NCBI GenBank assembly: GCA_905479205.1
Contig: CAJQLP010000157.1
Coordinates: forward strand, 1 to 32,761
Direction: 5' to 3'
DNA: 32,761 nt
From: an uncultured Luminiphilus sp.
GTDB lineage: Bacteria; Pseudomonadota; Gammaproteobacteria; Pseudomonadales; Halieaceae
The translations under genes were made by a program, and so were the position numbers. Positions 23,326 to 28,021 of this stretch are shown in pieces; positions within the stretch are counted from its first letter, which is position 1, and every line of letters begins with the position of its first letter. Below the pieces are notes generated by a model. That model was not told the origin of the DNA. It made no database searches and saw only the letters and a list, made by a program, of their open reading frames with translations.

Positions 23326-23880
23326 GTGAGTAAAGCCGTGCATCACTTCACAGCTAAAAATGTCTTTGTCCCTCTCGCCATAGCGGCATTGCTTAGTGCG
23401 TGTGCGGGTGCTCCTGATCAGGAACACGACTCTGCGCTTGTCTCCGAATCTAAAGTCACGCTAAATATTCCAGAGCCGCAATCGCTAAGTAACTGTGATT
23501 GCGAGGCTCTCGTCGACGTTAACGAAAATTATTTTGATCGGGGCGTGAGAGCCCTGGCTGCCCGCGATTATGATCAGGCTAGCGATTACTTTCAGCGCCA
23601 TAGAAAAGAAGGGTCTGAAGAAGCGCAGCGTGAAGCTGACGTCGGTATCGCATTTGTCACGTTAATGAGCGAGGCCGTGAGCAGCAGTGGAACGTCGGAT
23701 TCATCCGGCGTTGATGAGCGAGCAGAGGTAATGATCTTAGCGCTCGCCGCCGTGCAAACCCTCGAGGGACGCATCCAAGCGCTCGATGCACTCAATAAGG
23801 GGTTATCTAAAGATCTTGAGAAGCGAGAGGAAGCCCTTAAGCGCTTGCGTGATTTAACCCTTGGTCAATCGGAATCGTGA
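23326..23880 (+). CDS. lipoprotein with helical C-terminus, possibly QseG-like
   Basis: The 184-residue product has a lipoprotein signal: hydrophobic core [13 protein letters not shown] and lipobox LSAC at about residue 26, followed by AG, not Asp, so it is probably sorted to the outer membrane. The mature part has a Cys-x-Cys (NCDCEAL), a TPR-like helix pair ('[21 protein letters not shown]'-like region) and a C-terminal coiled coil ending [20 protein letters not shown]. This layout is reminiscent of QseG, the lipoprotein that in E. coli binds the QseE kinase; here too a kinase is next door, but convergent. GTG 23326 or GTG 23338 (with AAGTGAG 7 bases upstream) may be the start. The last 44 bases overlap the 3' end of the kinase gene on the other strand. 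Confidence 0.75.
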
Positions 23881-25381
23881 CCTGAAAAGTAGACCCCTCT
23901 CCGGGCGTACTGCTTAGCGTGATATTCCCGCCTAACATTTGGCAGAAATCTCGAACAATAGCTAATCCCAATCCGGTGCCGCCGTAGAGCGTTCCCGTTG
24001 TTGCTTCCGCTTGCACAAAAGCCTCAAAAACTTTGGCTTGTTGTTCATCGTTCATGCCGATACCCGTATCAGTCACCGTTACTAACAAATCATTATTTGC
24101 GCGCTCGGCGCTGACCCTGATTTGACCATCTTTCGTGAATTTACAGGCGTTGCTGAAAAGGTTTGTCACGATCTGCTGAAGCTTGCCGCGGTCGCTATTA
24201 ATCTCGCCAATCTCATCCATATTGATATCGAGTTGCAGCTCGTTATTGTTCTGAGAGAGCAGAGGAGAGAGTGCTTCACACACTTGGAATACTAAGGCGG
24301 CCGGATTAAACCATTCGTTGCTGACCTGCATCTTACCCGTCTCGATTTTAGACAAGTCTAAAATATCGTTAATAAGCGTGAGTAGCTGTCGCCCCGAAAA
24401 AATGATGGTTCCTAGGTCATGTTGAAACTGATCGCGGTCAATGTCTTGGGAGTCACCGATCTCGTCTTGAAGCATCTCGCTGTAGCCAATGATGGCATTC
24501 AGAGGAGTTCGAAGCTCGTGGCTGACGTTGGCTAGAAACATAGATTTAGCGGCGTTCGCCGCATCTGCATCAGCTTGTGCGGCCCGCACTTCGTCAATCG
24601 CAAATTGTAGCTTGCTCGACATGTCATTAAATGTGCGCGCCAAATCACCTATTTCGCCCGCGTCTCGACGTGAATCAATACGGTGAGTAAGGTCGCCTGA
24701 TCCGAAGCGCTGAACGCCGGTTTTCAGGCGGTGCAAGCTCGCATTAGTGCTCCTGATAAGCGCAATGACAAGCAGCATGGTGACGGCGATAGTGGTCACG
24801 AAACCGATTACGGTAATTCGATCGGTTAGCGTAATTGTGCGGTCAATAGCGTTGGATCGCTGAATAGCTAAAAACTCCTGCCGCTTATCCAGTTCTTGCA
24901 AACGCTGCTGTGTGTCGTTGTATGTGATCGATGAATCGAAGTCGAACAGTGCCTTGTCAGTGTTGTAGTTGTTATAAAAGCGCTGCCATTCGTCAATCAA
25001 GCTGCCGGCACTTTCATGTAAGCGTCGGTAGTAAGCATCGGTACCCTCTCCGCCAAGCCCGCCCAAACGGCGTAAACGTTGGTTGATATTGTCAATGTCT
25101 TCCAGGGCTGAGAGTTGCTCCTGCTCGCCGAGTGGTTGGTCGGTGGTTTCCCGTAGCGTTGCCAGTACGAGAATTTGCTGGCGGTTAGTTTCTAGGCTTT
25201 GTTCTAAGTCAGTAATTAACTGAGATGCCGTCACTGTATCGCGGTAGGCCACTAAGCTCTCGCTTCTGGCGAAACTGCCCCACACATGAGTGGCCACGTT
25301 AATCGCAAAAAGTGTGAGGATCGCAGCCGAGAATAAATAAAGTCGCGCCCTTAGGCTAAGGTTGCCGGGACGAAGTTTCAT
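23837..25381 (-). CDS. membrane sensor histidine kinase with HAMP domain
   Basis: 514 residues: TM1 about 13-33; a periplasmic, helix-rich sensor region about 34-188; TM2 about 189-210; HAMP about 211-263 ('[20 protein letters not shown]', '[13 protein letters not shown]'); a short coiled coil; HisKA with H288 ([20 protein letters not shown]); HATPase with N411 ([10 protein letters not shown]), D438-x-G (VTDTGIGM) and GGTGLGLAI (467-475). No receiver domain is attached. Its ATG overlaps the stop of the response regulator (ATGA), so it is the last gene of the operon cyclase - regulator - kinase. The regulator is its likely partner, and the cyclase's own receiver a second possible one. The signal is unknown. 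Confidence 0.95.
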
Positions 25382-25758
25382 GCTGAGATAAACTTTGCAA
25401 TCTTCGCCAGTAGATCTGGGAAGTCGATAGGCTTGGTGGCGTAGTCATCGCAGCCGATGTCTAGAGCGGTTTGTCTGTCGTTCTCCATGGCATGGGCAGT
25501 AAGTGCGATGATGGCTTGGTGGCTAATGCTGGTGTCGGCACGTGCTTCTTTACACGTGGTCCAGCCGTCCTTTATGGGCAGATTCATATCGAGTAAAACC
25601 AATGCTGGTTGTTCAGCGCGCATTTTTTGCAATGCTTCCTCACCATCGCCTGCACAGATCACTGCATGCCCTGCACGCGTAAGTCGCCTAACAAGCATGT
25701 CCCGGTTTATCTGGTTATCTTCGACTAAAAGAATTTTATTTGCCGTAGTTTCAGTCAC
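25378..25758 (-). CDS. single-domain response regulator (CheY-like)
   Basis: A 126-residue receiver with nothing attached. The acidic pocket is in '[10 protein letters not shown]' (E13, D14), the phosphate acceptor is D57 ([12 protein letters not shown]), the switch Thr/Ser is in 'IIALTAHAM' and the conserved lysine is K109 ([14 protein letters not shown]). It resembles the receivers of hybrid kinases. The frame runs further upstream, to 25839, but that part is inside the cyclase gene and unlike any receiver; GTG 25758 has AAAGGA 7 bases upstream, inside the cyclase end, and overlaps the cyclase stop by 8 bases. It probably relays phosphate from the adjacent kinase; with no output domain it must act by protein contact. 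Confidence 0.9.
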
Positions 25759-27211
25759 CACCGTGTCCTTTAATTGTATAGACCACAACGTTTTCTTTGA
25801 TACCTTTGGCGCTAATACTTTGGCTGTCACCCACCTCATAGCTGGCAGGCAGTTTGTCTAAGGTGCTTGCCGAGATCAATATTTGGTTCGGCTTTGCAAT
25901 ATCTTCAATGCGCGATGTCACATTCATTTCGTGGCCGACAAAGCCATACTTTGCTCGTCGCTCCGAGCCGATATTCCCAGCGACCACTGTCCCGGTATTG
26001 ATTGCGATTGCCATGGTCAGTTCGGGTAAGCCGTCGGCAAGGTTTTGCTCGTTGATATTTTTCATGGCCTCTTGCATGGCTATGGCACAGCGCACAGCGC
26101 GTTCGGCATCATCGTCGCCCTTGCGAGGAGCGCCAAATACCGCGAGGACAGCGTCGCCTAAAAACTCATCGATAGTACCTCTAAAGTCTAGGATGATTTC
26201 GGTCATCTTACCTAAATAGCGATTGAGTAATTGAACAACTTTCTGAGGAGGGAGGTGTTCGCTGAGAGTGGTGAAGCCGCGAATGTCGGACATCATTATA
26301 GTCACTTCGCGTAGATCTCCCCCTAACTCTAACCCTTCGGGACTCTCTAAAATTTCGGAAACAATATCATCGGAAAGGTAACGCCCAAATGTCGCACGGA
26401 TAAAGCGCTCGCTTCGCTCCAGTTGTTGCCGATATTGCTCCTCTCGGTCATGCCAGCGCTTTCTTTCGATGCCAGCCGAGATACGAGCTTGCAGCAATAC
26501 GGGATTGAATGGCTTCAATAGGTAATCGTCAGCGCCCGCTTGAATGCATGCCACGATTTGATCCATATCTTGCCTGCCGCTAATCATCACGACCGGCGTG
26601 GCTCGCAGGCGCTCGTCCTCTTTCATGTGCTTAAGTACTTCAGCGCCGCCAATACCCGGCATCATCAGATCGAGGAGCACCACATCGACGCCCATTGTTT
26701 CAAGGAGCTCTAAGGCTTCCTCACCGGACTCTGCAGTGATTACGGTGTGTCCAAACTTGCCGAGCAGTCGCGAAACGAGGTCACGATTTTCTGGCATGTC
26801 ATCAACCGCAAGAATGACGCCAGGTTCACTGAGGTTGGTTACAGTAGCAGAGACTTTTCCCGTTGCTGAAACTGACTGCGTGCGCTTACTGCTGGGAGAG
26901 GCTGAAGTTGCTGAAACAATGCCCGCCAGTGTGTTAGCTATAGCCGGGTGTAAGGCATCCGCATCTTCGTCAAGCATTTCGGCATAGCCCTTGATCGCGC
27001 CAATAATATTCAGCGCGTCATGTTGGCTGTTGCCATCGGCTGAGACTTGCAGCTCTTCAAGCTTGTCACAGGCGGCGATCAACGCGGAAACATCTTTACG
27101 CGCAAATGCGTCAAGTGTCACCGAAGACCTGCCGGCGGCGTCCCTCAATGGCGCTACAGCCCTAATAACTAGGCTTGACCACGCGCTGACTTCACTAGTG
27201 GGTTCTGTCAA
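25751..27211 (-). CDS. class III nucleotide cyclase with receiver domain and H-box-like segment
   Basis: With TTG 27211 as start (AAGGA 7 bases upstream; the extension to 27346 has no fitting start and is intergenic in character) the protein has 486 residues. Order: a helical segment (about 1-110) containing an H-box-like motif with H64 (QHDALNIIGAIKGYAEML) but no ATPase domain; receiver (about 131-247) with D137/D138, phosphate acceptor D181 (VVLLDLMMPGIGG) and K233 (LLKPF); a coiled linker; class III cyclase (about 300-486). The cyclase keeps both metal-binding aspartates, D309 (MMSDIRGFTTLSE) and D353 (EFLGDAVLAVFG), and the transition-state pair N430 and R434 (MNVTSRIED). The purine-selecting position has E349 in place of adenylyl-cyclase Lys, the second has G423. 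It is active-looking, with uncertain nucleotide. First gene of the signalling operon. Confidence 0.92.
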   Translation of the reverse strand: MTEPTSEVSAWSSLVIRAVAPLRDAAGRSSVTLDAFARKDVSALIAACDKLEELQVSADGNSQHDALNIIGAIKGYAEMLDEDADALHPAIANTLAGIVSATSASPSSKRTQSVSATGKVSATVTNLSEPGVILAVDDMPENRDLVSRLLGKFGHTVITAESGEEALELLETMGVDVVLLDLMMPGIGGAEVLKHMKEDERLRATPVVMISGRQDMDQIVACIQAGADDYLLKPFNPVLLQARISAGIERKRWHDREEQYRQQLERSERFIRATFGRYLSDDIVSEILESPEGLELGGDLREVTIMMSDIRGFTTLSEHLPPQKVVQLLNRYLGKMTEIILDFRGTIDEFLGDAVLAVFGAPRKGDDDAERAVRCAIAMQEAMKNINEQNLADGLPELTMAIAINTGTVVAGNIGSERRAKYGFVGHEMNVTSRIEDIAKPNQILISASTLDKLPASYEVGDSQSISAKGIKENVVVYTIKGHGGD

Positions 27212-27258
27212 TGTGCTGTCCTTGTATTTGCCATCATGTTCCAGTAAGCCTCTATTGT

Positions 27259-27272
27259 GCCAAAATTTTGGC
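27259..27272. promoter_or_regulatory. 14-bp perfect palindrome GCCAAAATTTTGGC between cyclase and CRP-like gene
   Basis: The sequence reads the same on both strands. Both arms end in TTGGC, which gives a -35-like hexamer outward in each direction: TTGGCG (27268-27273) towards the CRP-like gene and TTGGCA (27263-27258) towards the cyclase. A wider inverted repeat, TGTGC (27256-27260) and GCACA (27276-27280), surrounds it. A dimeric repressor binding here would cover both promoters. Confidence 0.5.
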
Positions 27273-27295
27273 GTAGCACATCGCTTTACTACAAT
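27268..27295 (+). promoter_or_regulatory. probable promoter of the CRP-like gene
   Basis: TTGGCG (27268-27273, 4 of 6), 16 bases and TACAAT (27290-27295, 5 of 6). Predicted start near 27302, a leader of about 72 bases. The -35 box is formed by the right arm of the palindrome. The facing minus-strand box TTGGCA (5 of 6) has only a weak -10 (CATGAT, spacer 19). Confidence 0.45.
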
Positions 27296-27373
27296 CTTAT
27301 TTTGGGGATAGGCGCACAGGCATGTTTGGGTTAGTATCACCCCCAACGTTGAACGTGAAAGGGCACAATATCA

Positions 27374-28021
27374 ATGCTGGATCAAGTGGAAATATTTCAC
27401 GGCTTAAAAGCCGACGAATTGCAAGCGCTGGACGCTACCAGTTCAACCCGCTCATTCCCCAAAAACACTGTTGTGATTCACGAAAACGATCCTGCAGACT
27501 CACTGTTTGTTATCGAGAGCGGTAAAGTAAAAGTCTACTGCAGCGACAAGAACGGTAAAGAGTTCATCATGAATACGCTTGGCCCTGGCGATTATTTTGG
27601 CGAGCTTGCACTGCTAGATGATTCCACGCGCTCTGCCTCGGTGAGAACAGTTGAAAAATCTGACTTTCGTATCGTCATGAAGGAAGATTTTAACCGCGTA
27701 TTGGATGATCACCCCAATATCACTCGCCAACTAATCAGTAACCTTGCTGGTCGTGTTCGTAAGCTGACCGCAGACGTTAAAAGCTTGGCTTTGCAGGATG
27801 TTTATGGCCGCGTAGCTAACGTGCTCATGGATTTGTCCGAAGAGCGAGGCGATGGCACTTTGTTTATCCCGGAGAAGCTGACCCAGCAAGATATTGCAGA
27901 CCGTGTTGGTGCATCTCGTGAAATGGTTGCTCGCATATTGAAAGACCTGACCATTGGCGAGTACATTCGTTTTGAGGGGCGACATATCATTATCAATACT
28001 CGGCTACCTGCGAAGTACTAA
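27374..28021 (+). CDS. CRP/FNR-family cyclic-nucleotide-type transcription regulator
   Basis: 215 residues: cyclic-nucleotide-binding barrel (1-110), dimer helix (about 115-145), winged helix-turn-helix (about 165-210). The phosphate-binding cassette is complete: E77, R86 and S87 (YFGELALLDDSTRSASV) match E72, R82 and S83 of E. coli CRP. Gap-free alignment over the dimer helix puts L131 and T132 where CRP has T127 and S128, so the adenine contact made by T127 is lost. The recognition helix ASREMVARILKDL keeps the Arg-Glu...Arg that reads TGTGA. It lacks the N-terminal cysteine cluster of FNR. Divergent from the cyclase, with a shared regulatory gap of 162 bases. Confidence 0.93.
   Translation: MLDQVEIFHGLKADELQALDATSSTRSFPKNTVVIHENDPADSLFVIESGKVKVYCSDKNGKEFIMNTLGPGDYFGELALLDDSTRSASVRTVEKSDFRIVMKEDFNRVLDDHPNITRQLISNLAGRVRKLTADVKSLALQDVYGRVANVLMDLSEERGDGTLFIPEKLTQQDIADRVGASREMVARILKDLTIGEYIRFEGRHIIINTRLPAKY

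Follow-up and report, generated by a model that had tools for sequence, protein, structure and literature searches.

Four-step phosphorelays are familiar from transcription factors and cell-cycle control, and bacterial cGMP signalling is known from few worked-out cases. In the Spo0 pathway (KinA-Spo0F-Spo0B-Spo0A) and in SdrG-PhyT-PhyR, as outlined in two reports (PMC5898713, PMC9981736), the relay is made up of a kinase, a lone receiver, a DHp-derived phosphotransferase and a receiver-output protein. Linkage of guanylyl cyclase genes to that of a cGMP-responsive CRP homologue, CgrA, is described for gcyB-gcyC-cgrA of Rhodospirillum centenum, where CgrA binds TGTGA-N6-TCACA upstream of the operon (in the account of PMC4681086). 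In the algal 2c-Cyclop, phosphotransfer from histidine kinase to receiver controls a guanylyl cyclase, which is activated by receiver phosphorylation in the model given by PMC6284317. Among native catalytic domains in the PDB, that of Synechocystis Cya2 was the closest to the cyclase studied here (E=8.3e-54); a Glu-Gly pair is named as the Cya2 pair in PMC4215837, and a single exchange, E488K, converts Cya2 to an adenylyl cyclase according to PMC5995499. Every part of the locus that we analysed is of a known kind and the combination is without known description: in the literature searched, in which subscription journals were thinly covered, we found no account of a HisKA-receiver-cyclase protein beside a CRP.

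The locus lies in a stretch of 32,761 nucleotides from an uncultured Luminiphilus sp. of the Halieaceae (the window; contig CAJQLP010000157.1) and has the following features:

23837-25381, minus strand: membrane histidine kinase, 514 aa (open reading frame and domain matches)
25378-25758, minus strand: free single-domain receiver, GTG start (open reading frame and domain match)
25751-27211, minus strand: three-domain cyclase (DHp-like, receiver, class III catalytic), 486 aa, TTG start
26831-27211, minus strand: N-terminal helical DHp/HisKA-like domain of the cyclase without ATPase, residues 1-127 (about 125)
26474-26818, minus strand: receiver domain of the cyclase, about residues 132-246, phospho-acceptor Asp181
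25772-26323, minus strand: class III catalytic domain, about residues 297-480, metal Asp309/Asp353, purine-selecting Glu349/Gly423
27212-27373, no strand: divergent control region of 162 bases, from the cyclase TTG start to the start of the CRP-like gene
27374-28021, plus strand: CRP-family regulator (CRP-like), cNMP_binding and HTH_Crp_2

The four genes described by a sequence-only reading of this DNA were found at these positions, with the shared 162-base region and the tight junctions that it had reported: the receiver GTG start lies inside the cyclase end in an 8-base overlap (25751-25758), and free receiver and kinase share the four bases ATGA (25378-25381). An AAGGA lies upstream of the cyclase TTG start at 27211, and GTG, TTG or ATG stands near the same start position in most of 41 cyclase orthologues. 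Linkage in related genomes also held, cyclase, receiver and kinase being on the same strand at 41/41 relatives' loci and the divergent CRP completing the set at 39 of them (the other two, L004 and L016, end with their contig before the CRP), an arrangement beyond chance. In an order-wide sample, the cyclase was present in 12/12 same-family genomes; the neighbourhood reading of that sample covered all but four of the 42 outside-family genomes (G271, G110, G308, G227), and of the 12 same-family ones G000 and G003 were read by another route. Across 57 genomes of the genus, hand counting gave a near-complete cyclase in 41, a split or cut one in 3, a fragment at a contig end in 2 (G053, G032) and none in 11, and the CRP was found in 45; the 12 without CRP are the 11 cyclase-absent genomes and G053, each less than 90% complete, and both genes are present in 17/17 high-quality genomes. 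We rejected joint loss of the two genes in the genus as evidence of linkage, because incomplete assembly accounts for the gaps, which count neither way. Median identity was higher for the CRP (89%, 28 loci) than for the neighbouring GuaB (80%, 25 loci) and LysS (76%, 29 loci).

The kinase has HAMP (residues 208-259), HisKA (278-349, with His288) and HATPase_c (397-506) domains, hydrophobic, putatively transmembrane stretches near residues 12-34 and 187-216, and no receiver domain of its own. Catalytic residues checked in the kinase, both receivers and the cyclase were conserved at every locus covering them, with kinase H288 kept in 40/40 loci, N411/D438/G440/G467/G470 in 30/30 (11 of the 41 are cut there), and E13, D14, D57, T87 and K109 of the free receiver invariant in 41/41. 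An earlier scheme, in which one kinase phosphorylates one or both receivers, agrees with this conservation but is incomplete: the cyclase had been described as receiver plus cyclase, both of which are there, but a third, N-terminal DHp-like histidine domain had gone unnamed, and because of this domain a serial relay fits better than one kinase feeding two receivers. On balance, we lean towards the operon of these marine gammaproteobacteria being a Spo0-type His-Asp-His-Asp relay that ends in the cyclase and feeds a CRP-type receptor; each phosphotransfer, its place in the order and its sign are predicted from sequence, as are the nucleotide made and its binding by the CRP-like protein. The membrane kinase would autophosphorylate at His288 and the phosphate would pass to Asp57 of the free receiver, then to His64 of the DHp-like domain and on to Asp181 of the cyclase's own receiver, whose phosphorylation would make the adjoining class III catalytic domain more or less active. 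The product, most likely cGMP, would be bound by the divergently encoded CRP-family protein, which would in turn regulate genes.

The cyclase N-terminus resembles the DHp/HisKA histidine domain of a kinase lacking its ATPase, and is predicted to transfer phosphate. Its H-box reads HDALN..GAIKGYAEML (His64 codon, 27020-27022); His64 and Asn68 are invariant in 31/31 cyclases of the family while most of the domain drifts, and the corresponding His is invariant in 37/37 DHp-bearing cyclases outside the family. Pfam HisKA matched 25/27 family members at E<=10 (best 5e-8) and 35/37 outside-family members at E<=0.1, matches that are not all above the Pfam cut-off (for example L088, 22.5 bits vs 26.9); L112, L120 and one Bradyrhizobium protein exceed it with no HATPase in the protein. 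When the domain was compared with the H-box of the neighbouring kinase, profile to profile over 32 columns, the probability was 97.5%, and 0.4% for the control. Three results count against the relay model: the window's own domain alone had no Pfam HisKA match at E<=10 (HMMER's filters discard most matches weaker than 0.1), a Foldseek search with the domain model returned no significant hit (the top one, at E 0.4, is no DHp), and the AlphaFold chain has four to five helices, without the clear look of a two-helix DHp.

Among cyclases outside the family, 36/37 DHp-bearing ones are followed directly downstream by a lone receiver gene, vs 0/24 of those scored DHp-lacking. The H-box is degenerate in family f32 (2 genomes), L100 keeping the His with D65 and N68 replaced and L101 having Leu for His; in family f42 (2 of 3 genomes read), the DHp-like domain is absent and the acidic pair of the receiver is lost. 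The free receiver was not found in any of the five f32/f42 genomes at E<=1e-20 (5/5 DHp-bearing control genomes were positive) and the sensor part of the kinase was not found in these five at E<=0.001, genome-wide searches that strengthen the co-variation. At L094, domain and receiver occur without an adjacent kinase, and a kinase with this sensor is encoded elsewhere in the genome (E=5e-19). Loci within one family are not independent, and two family-level losses are few events; these paired losses offer a ready genetic test of the relay logic.

The catalytic domain is a class III nucleotidyl cyclase (PF00211, 105 bits vs a cut-off of 21.9), with the metal residues D309 and D353 in 41/41 cyclases. 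The purine-selecting E349/G423 pair is also found in 41/41, as in the guanylyl cyclase Cya2, with Glu349 at the position where adenylyl cyclases carry Lys, which makes cGMP the likelier product than cAMP; counting against cGMP, the Cya2 Tyr that favours guanylyl activity is Ser433 here. The cyclase named by the sequence-only reading was borne out, and the nucleotide, which it had left open, is now suggested by the E/G pair. Its contrast with the enterobacterial CyaA/CRP arrangement also stands, no class I (enterobacterial-type) cyclase being found in 57 genomes of the genus. Given this absence, we tentatively suggest, as a possibility rather than an expectation, that the fused-relay receiver-guanylyl cyclase turns a membrane signal into cGMP, and that cGMP acting via CRP is the main cyclic-mononucleotide switch in these Halieaceae and several sister families.

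The CRP-like protein matched cNMP_binding (92.8 bits) and the Crp-type HTH (48.5 bits), both above cut-off, and scored 131 bits, below the threshold of 266, against NF008732, the equivalog of cAMP-activated CRP. Its cyclic-nucleotide pocket (E77, R86, S87, T132), which we take to be equivalent to CAP E72, R82, S83 and S128, is intact in 54/54 CRP-like proteins. In the alignment with E. coli CRP, T132 falls at CAP S128 and Leu131 at CAP T127, and R182/E183/R187 of the HTH are the same as in CAP; CAP T127 is a base contact for either nucleotide, and Leu131 there counts against the CRP end of the relay. CRP autoregulation was considered and rejected as unsupported, since the best TGTGA-N6-TCACA match has 7 of 10 bases and was matched in 51.5% of 200 Markov shuffles; over 40 control regions, CRP-type sites reached p<0.05 only at L014 (p=0.02). 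The idea of a closed circuit agrees with the linkage of the four genes in the family, but strict closure is called into question outside it, where the CRP is not adjacent in 12/34 DHp-bearing loci with enough flank (hand count; ten loci of f24 and two of f9); the CRP is less tightly linked to the cyclase than the kinase is.

A different wiring would be a branched two-component system, in which the cyclase receiver takes its phosphate straight from the kinase, the free receiver is a phosphate sink or second output, and the DHp-like domain serves dimerisation only. Class III cyclases work as dimers and DHp domains dimerise, in line with this wiring, and a kinase lies close by at 10/18 class- or phylum-level DHp-lacking loci (hand count), so that REC-cyclases can do without the domain. 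We nevertheless consider the branched wiring distinctly unlikely, because dimerisation does not need an invariant His and Asn in an otherwise drifting domain and because the domain tracks the lone receiver, both next to the cyclase (36/37 vs 0/24) and over the whole of the five genomes searched. HDxxN doubles as the phosphatase motif of HisKA proteins and, with D65 and N68 of the H-box conserved, the domain might instead act in cis as a phosphatase of the cyclase receiver, resetting the switch rather than feeding it; this leaves the lone receiver's company with the domain unexplained and appears quite improbable.

Two further alternatives are compatible with these and with each other. The serial wiring could be kept with cAMP as second messenger, as the retention of E77, R86, S87 and T132 in the CRP-like protein (54/54) and the missing Cya2 Tyr would allow, but Glu349 is invariant where adenylyl cyclases have Lys and Gly423 is found in 41/41, and we regard cAMP as somewhat unlikely. 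That the CRP-like protein is a mere genomic neighbour answering another ligand would fit its nonadjacency in f24 and at the two f9 loci, the shared control region without CRP site and the replacement of CAP T127 by Leu131. This is unlikely in our view, because the CRP still adjoins the cyclase at the 4 f32/f42 loci read, although loss or degeneration has affected kinase, receiver and DHp there, and because the E/R/S/T pocket is intact.

How does the serial relay compare with known systems? A Bradyrhizobium cluster (L039) likewise encodes a HisKA-REC-Guanylate_cyc protein without HATPase, with a lone receiver and a hybrid kinase nearby, but it has a Lys/Asp adenylyl-type pair (read by eye) instead of E/G and an extra gene, presumably FIST-like; at E<=1e-8, no CRP match was found in L039, and a weak one (24%) in L055. 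Cya2 shares the E/G pair but is CHASE2-regulated, as reported in PMC5995499, and has Tyr where Ser433 stands here. The R. centenum operon is alike in linkage, but the CgrA-type site is missing from this control region. The algal 2c-Cyclop joins a full kinase and a rhodopsin in a single polypeptide, and the model described for it includes neither a lone-receiver relay nor a CRP. Unlike in Spo0 and SdrG-PhyT-PhyR, a single protein here carries phosphotransferase domain, receiver and output, and that output is a nucleotide cyclase; if the relay reading is true, a four-step relay would govern the synthesis of a second messenger through a phosphotransferase that is part of the enzyme itself.

The genes that a sequence-only reading had joined into a kinase-receiver-cyclase-CRP signalling circuit were confirmed in the window, at the reported places, on contig C157 of a 2.53 Mb metagenome-assembled genome (MAG, 83% complete):

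27211 to 25751, minus strand: three-domain cyclase, TTG start
25758 to 25378, minus strand: lone receiver, GTG start
25381 to 23837, minus strand: HAMP-HisKA-HATPase kinase
27374-28021, plus strand: CRP-family protein, 162 bases from the minus-strand genes

The minus-strand genes overlap by 8 bases (cyclase/receiver) and 4 bases (receiver/kinase), and the closest named matches of the cyclase are from Halieaceae (identity up to 74%), which points to a member of this family as the source. This layout was compared across 30 loci from named records (L002-L031) and, from same-genus genomes, 11 loci (L057-L067). Most of the named records belong to Halieaceae going by their title or genus; six carry no more than Proteobacteria or Gammaproteobacteria in the title. 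Receiver and kinase lay downstream of the cyclase on the same strand in 41/41 loci, 41 being an upper bound on independent cases (L002/L057 and L003/L060 seem to be the same genome), and the divergent CRP gene was seen in 39/41, the contig stopping before it in L004 and L016. Around the named-record loci we found lysS (29/30), xseA (26) and guaB (25) at E<=1e-20; xseA was also seen in the short same-genus loci, with lysS beyond their reach. Median identities to the window proteins in the named-record loci were 89% for CRP, 80% for GuaB, 76% for LysS, 66% for the receiver, 59% for the cyclase, 55% for the kinase and 50% for XseA. A small lipoprotein-like gene (23326-23880; GTG start, LSAC lipobox) converges with the kinase and overlaps its 3' end by 44 bases; it occupies the same position in these 30 loci (more distant in L028), and a Pfam search with it gave nothing above cut-off.

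What the sequence-only reading had missed, while right about the genes, is the N-terminal third domain of the cyclase, which by sequence looks like a HisKA-type histidine (DHp) domain. Residues 1-127 of the window protein gave no signalling-domain match in Pfam; across homologues, HisKA matched 25/27 family (Halieaceae) members at E<=10 (best 5e-8) and 35/37 more distant members at E<=0.1. Only D40, H64, N68, G75, E78, L80 and E82 are invariant before residue 130 in a 31-sequence alignment, and the consensus HDLMNxLxAIRGYAEML stands in register with a 17-residue stretch of the kinase. In profile-profile comparison, the domain matched the H-box region of the neighbouring kinase with 97.5% probability over 32 columns; the sensor part of that kinase, used as control, gave 0.4%. 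The domain profile found seven PDB matches, four to kinase-type chains (4jas, 5ukv, 3d36, 6azr) and three unrelated, and in the two kinase alignments examined (best 4jas, E=0.0064) the phospho-acceptor His lies opposite His64. AlphaFold models the domain as helical, with helices at 4-27, 35-56, 62-82 and 89-103, a short fifth one, and His64 opening the third. In the model of this domain the block pLDDT is 87-97 across residues 11-100; Foldseek returned no significant match for it. The HisKA-REC-Guanylate_cyc architecture scores above Pfam cut-offs, with no HATPase, in L112 from a different order of the class, in L120 from a different class of the phylum, and in a named Bradyrhizobium protein. 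In Bradyrhizobium sp. URHD0069 (L039, 1920-7988), one cluster brings together a lone receiver, another gene, a PAS hybrid kinase and a HisKA-REC-adenylyl-type cyclase, which opens with an additional, degenerate H-box-like stretch.

The DHp-like domain and the lone receiver largely come and go together. An order-level sample of 293 genomes gave an N-terminal-through-catalytic match in 54, from nine families (at most five candidates scored per genome), and the loci fetched were 38 of 42 outside the family, 2 of family f42 and 20 at class or phylum level. In a mechanical scan 37 cyclases scored for the domain, and the next domain-bearing same-strand gene downstream was the lone receiver in 36, then the kinase in 35; of the two exceptions, L112 and L094 (see below), L112 has receiver and kinase adjoining on the opposite strand. 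The lone receiver came next in 0/24 cyclases (23 loci) not scoring, a group with scant downstream sequence for L117's second cyclase (175 bases) and L123 (773), and including L120, which is HisKA-bearing by Pfam and whose kinase has a receiver upstream. Among the sequences that went into the domain profile were 14 of those scanned; Pfam calls are independent of it. Because loci within a family share ancestry, little rests on the Fisher test (36/0 vs 0/22, entered before the mechanical count), and the independent events are two family-level losses. In f32 (two genomes; L100, L101), the H-box is degenerate: both loci carry substitutions at D65 and N68, one locus retains the His and the other has Leu there. 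The cyclase receiver of f32 keeps its active site. In f42 (two of three genomes read; L106 and L107, 5799-7187), the domain is absent; the cyclase receiver no longer has the acidic pair or the Ser and is probably a relic that has ceased to be phosphorylated. In the five f32/f42 genomes (86-99% complete) a search for the free receiver gave no match at E<=1e-20; the same search found it in 5/5 DHp-bearing controls, each time at the cluster. Nor did those five genomes yield the sensor part of the kinase at E<=0.001; G067, the only DHp-bearing genome searched, was positive. The divergent CRP gene remains beside the cyclase in all four loci (identity 70-71% in f32, 44% in f42). Kinases with their own C-terminal receivers occur in several families, and these receivers could replace or precede the lone one. 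In L094 (1609-5084), a locus of G067, a TPR-type protein follows the DHp-bearing cyclase and lone receiver in the kinase's expected place; another contig of that genome carries a 526-residue frame with the sensor of this kinase (33% identity, E=5e-19).

As to its product, the best native PDB match of the cyclase is Cya2 (2w01, E=8.3e-54); 6fht, an engineered fusion with Lys at the Glu position, scores better. Glu349 and Gly423 are invariant in 41/41 loci, and 37 further DHp-bearing homologues have Glu in 37/37 and Gly in 34/37 (Ala in L094, L095 and L096). Cya2 carries this E-G pair, according to PMC4215837, and E488K turns it into an adenylyl cyclase, according to PMC5995499; Cya2 has an extra Tyr where the window cyclase has Ser. 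We consider cGMP a likelier product than cAMP. One class III cyclase was found in this incomplete MAG, and some genus members hold a second of lower identity (e.g. G014, 34%). A search of 57 genomes of the genus for class I cyclases gave no match; E. coli was the only one of the controls to give one.

The CRP-like protein aligns with E. coli CRP at 33% identity, with R182, E183 and R187 of the recognition helix the same. Its E77, R86, S87 and T132, kept in 39/39 family loci and 15/15 others, align with the pocket residues E72, R82, S83 and S128. PMC10127613 describes residues of matching kind for Clr and names T127/S128 of CAP as cAMP contacts. At the T127 position stands Leu131, which is invariant in the family; the 15 other sequences carry L, I or M there. 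One base contact is thus missing and the other kept, a pattern that does not discriminate between cAMP and cGMP as ligand. Outside the family, CRP is adjacent in 22/34 DHp-bearing loci with room, a hand count that leaves out the truncated L136 and L141 as well as L112, whose CRP match is weak at 32 bits. The loci without an adjacent CRP are the full set of ten from f24 and two from f9. These f24 loci (L102-L104, L145-L151) keep the cyclase-receiver-kinase trio, with longer cyclase frames of 627-685 residues.

Altogether, we regard the proposed circuit as plausible, with the putative phosphotransfer domain of the cyclase as an added element: phosphate would pass from kinase His288 to free receiver Asp57, then to cyclase His64 and on to cyclase Asp181, which would control the catalytic domain, whose cGMP would act on the CRP-like protein. 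The relay would probably activate the cyclase, by analogy with what is described for 2c-Cyclops. The shared promoter shows no standout CRP site, in contrast to R. centenum, which has one in its control region; the relay logic matches Spo0 or SdrG-PhyT-PhyR.
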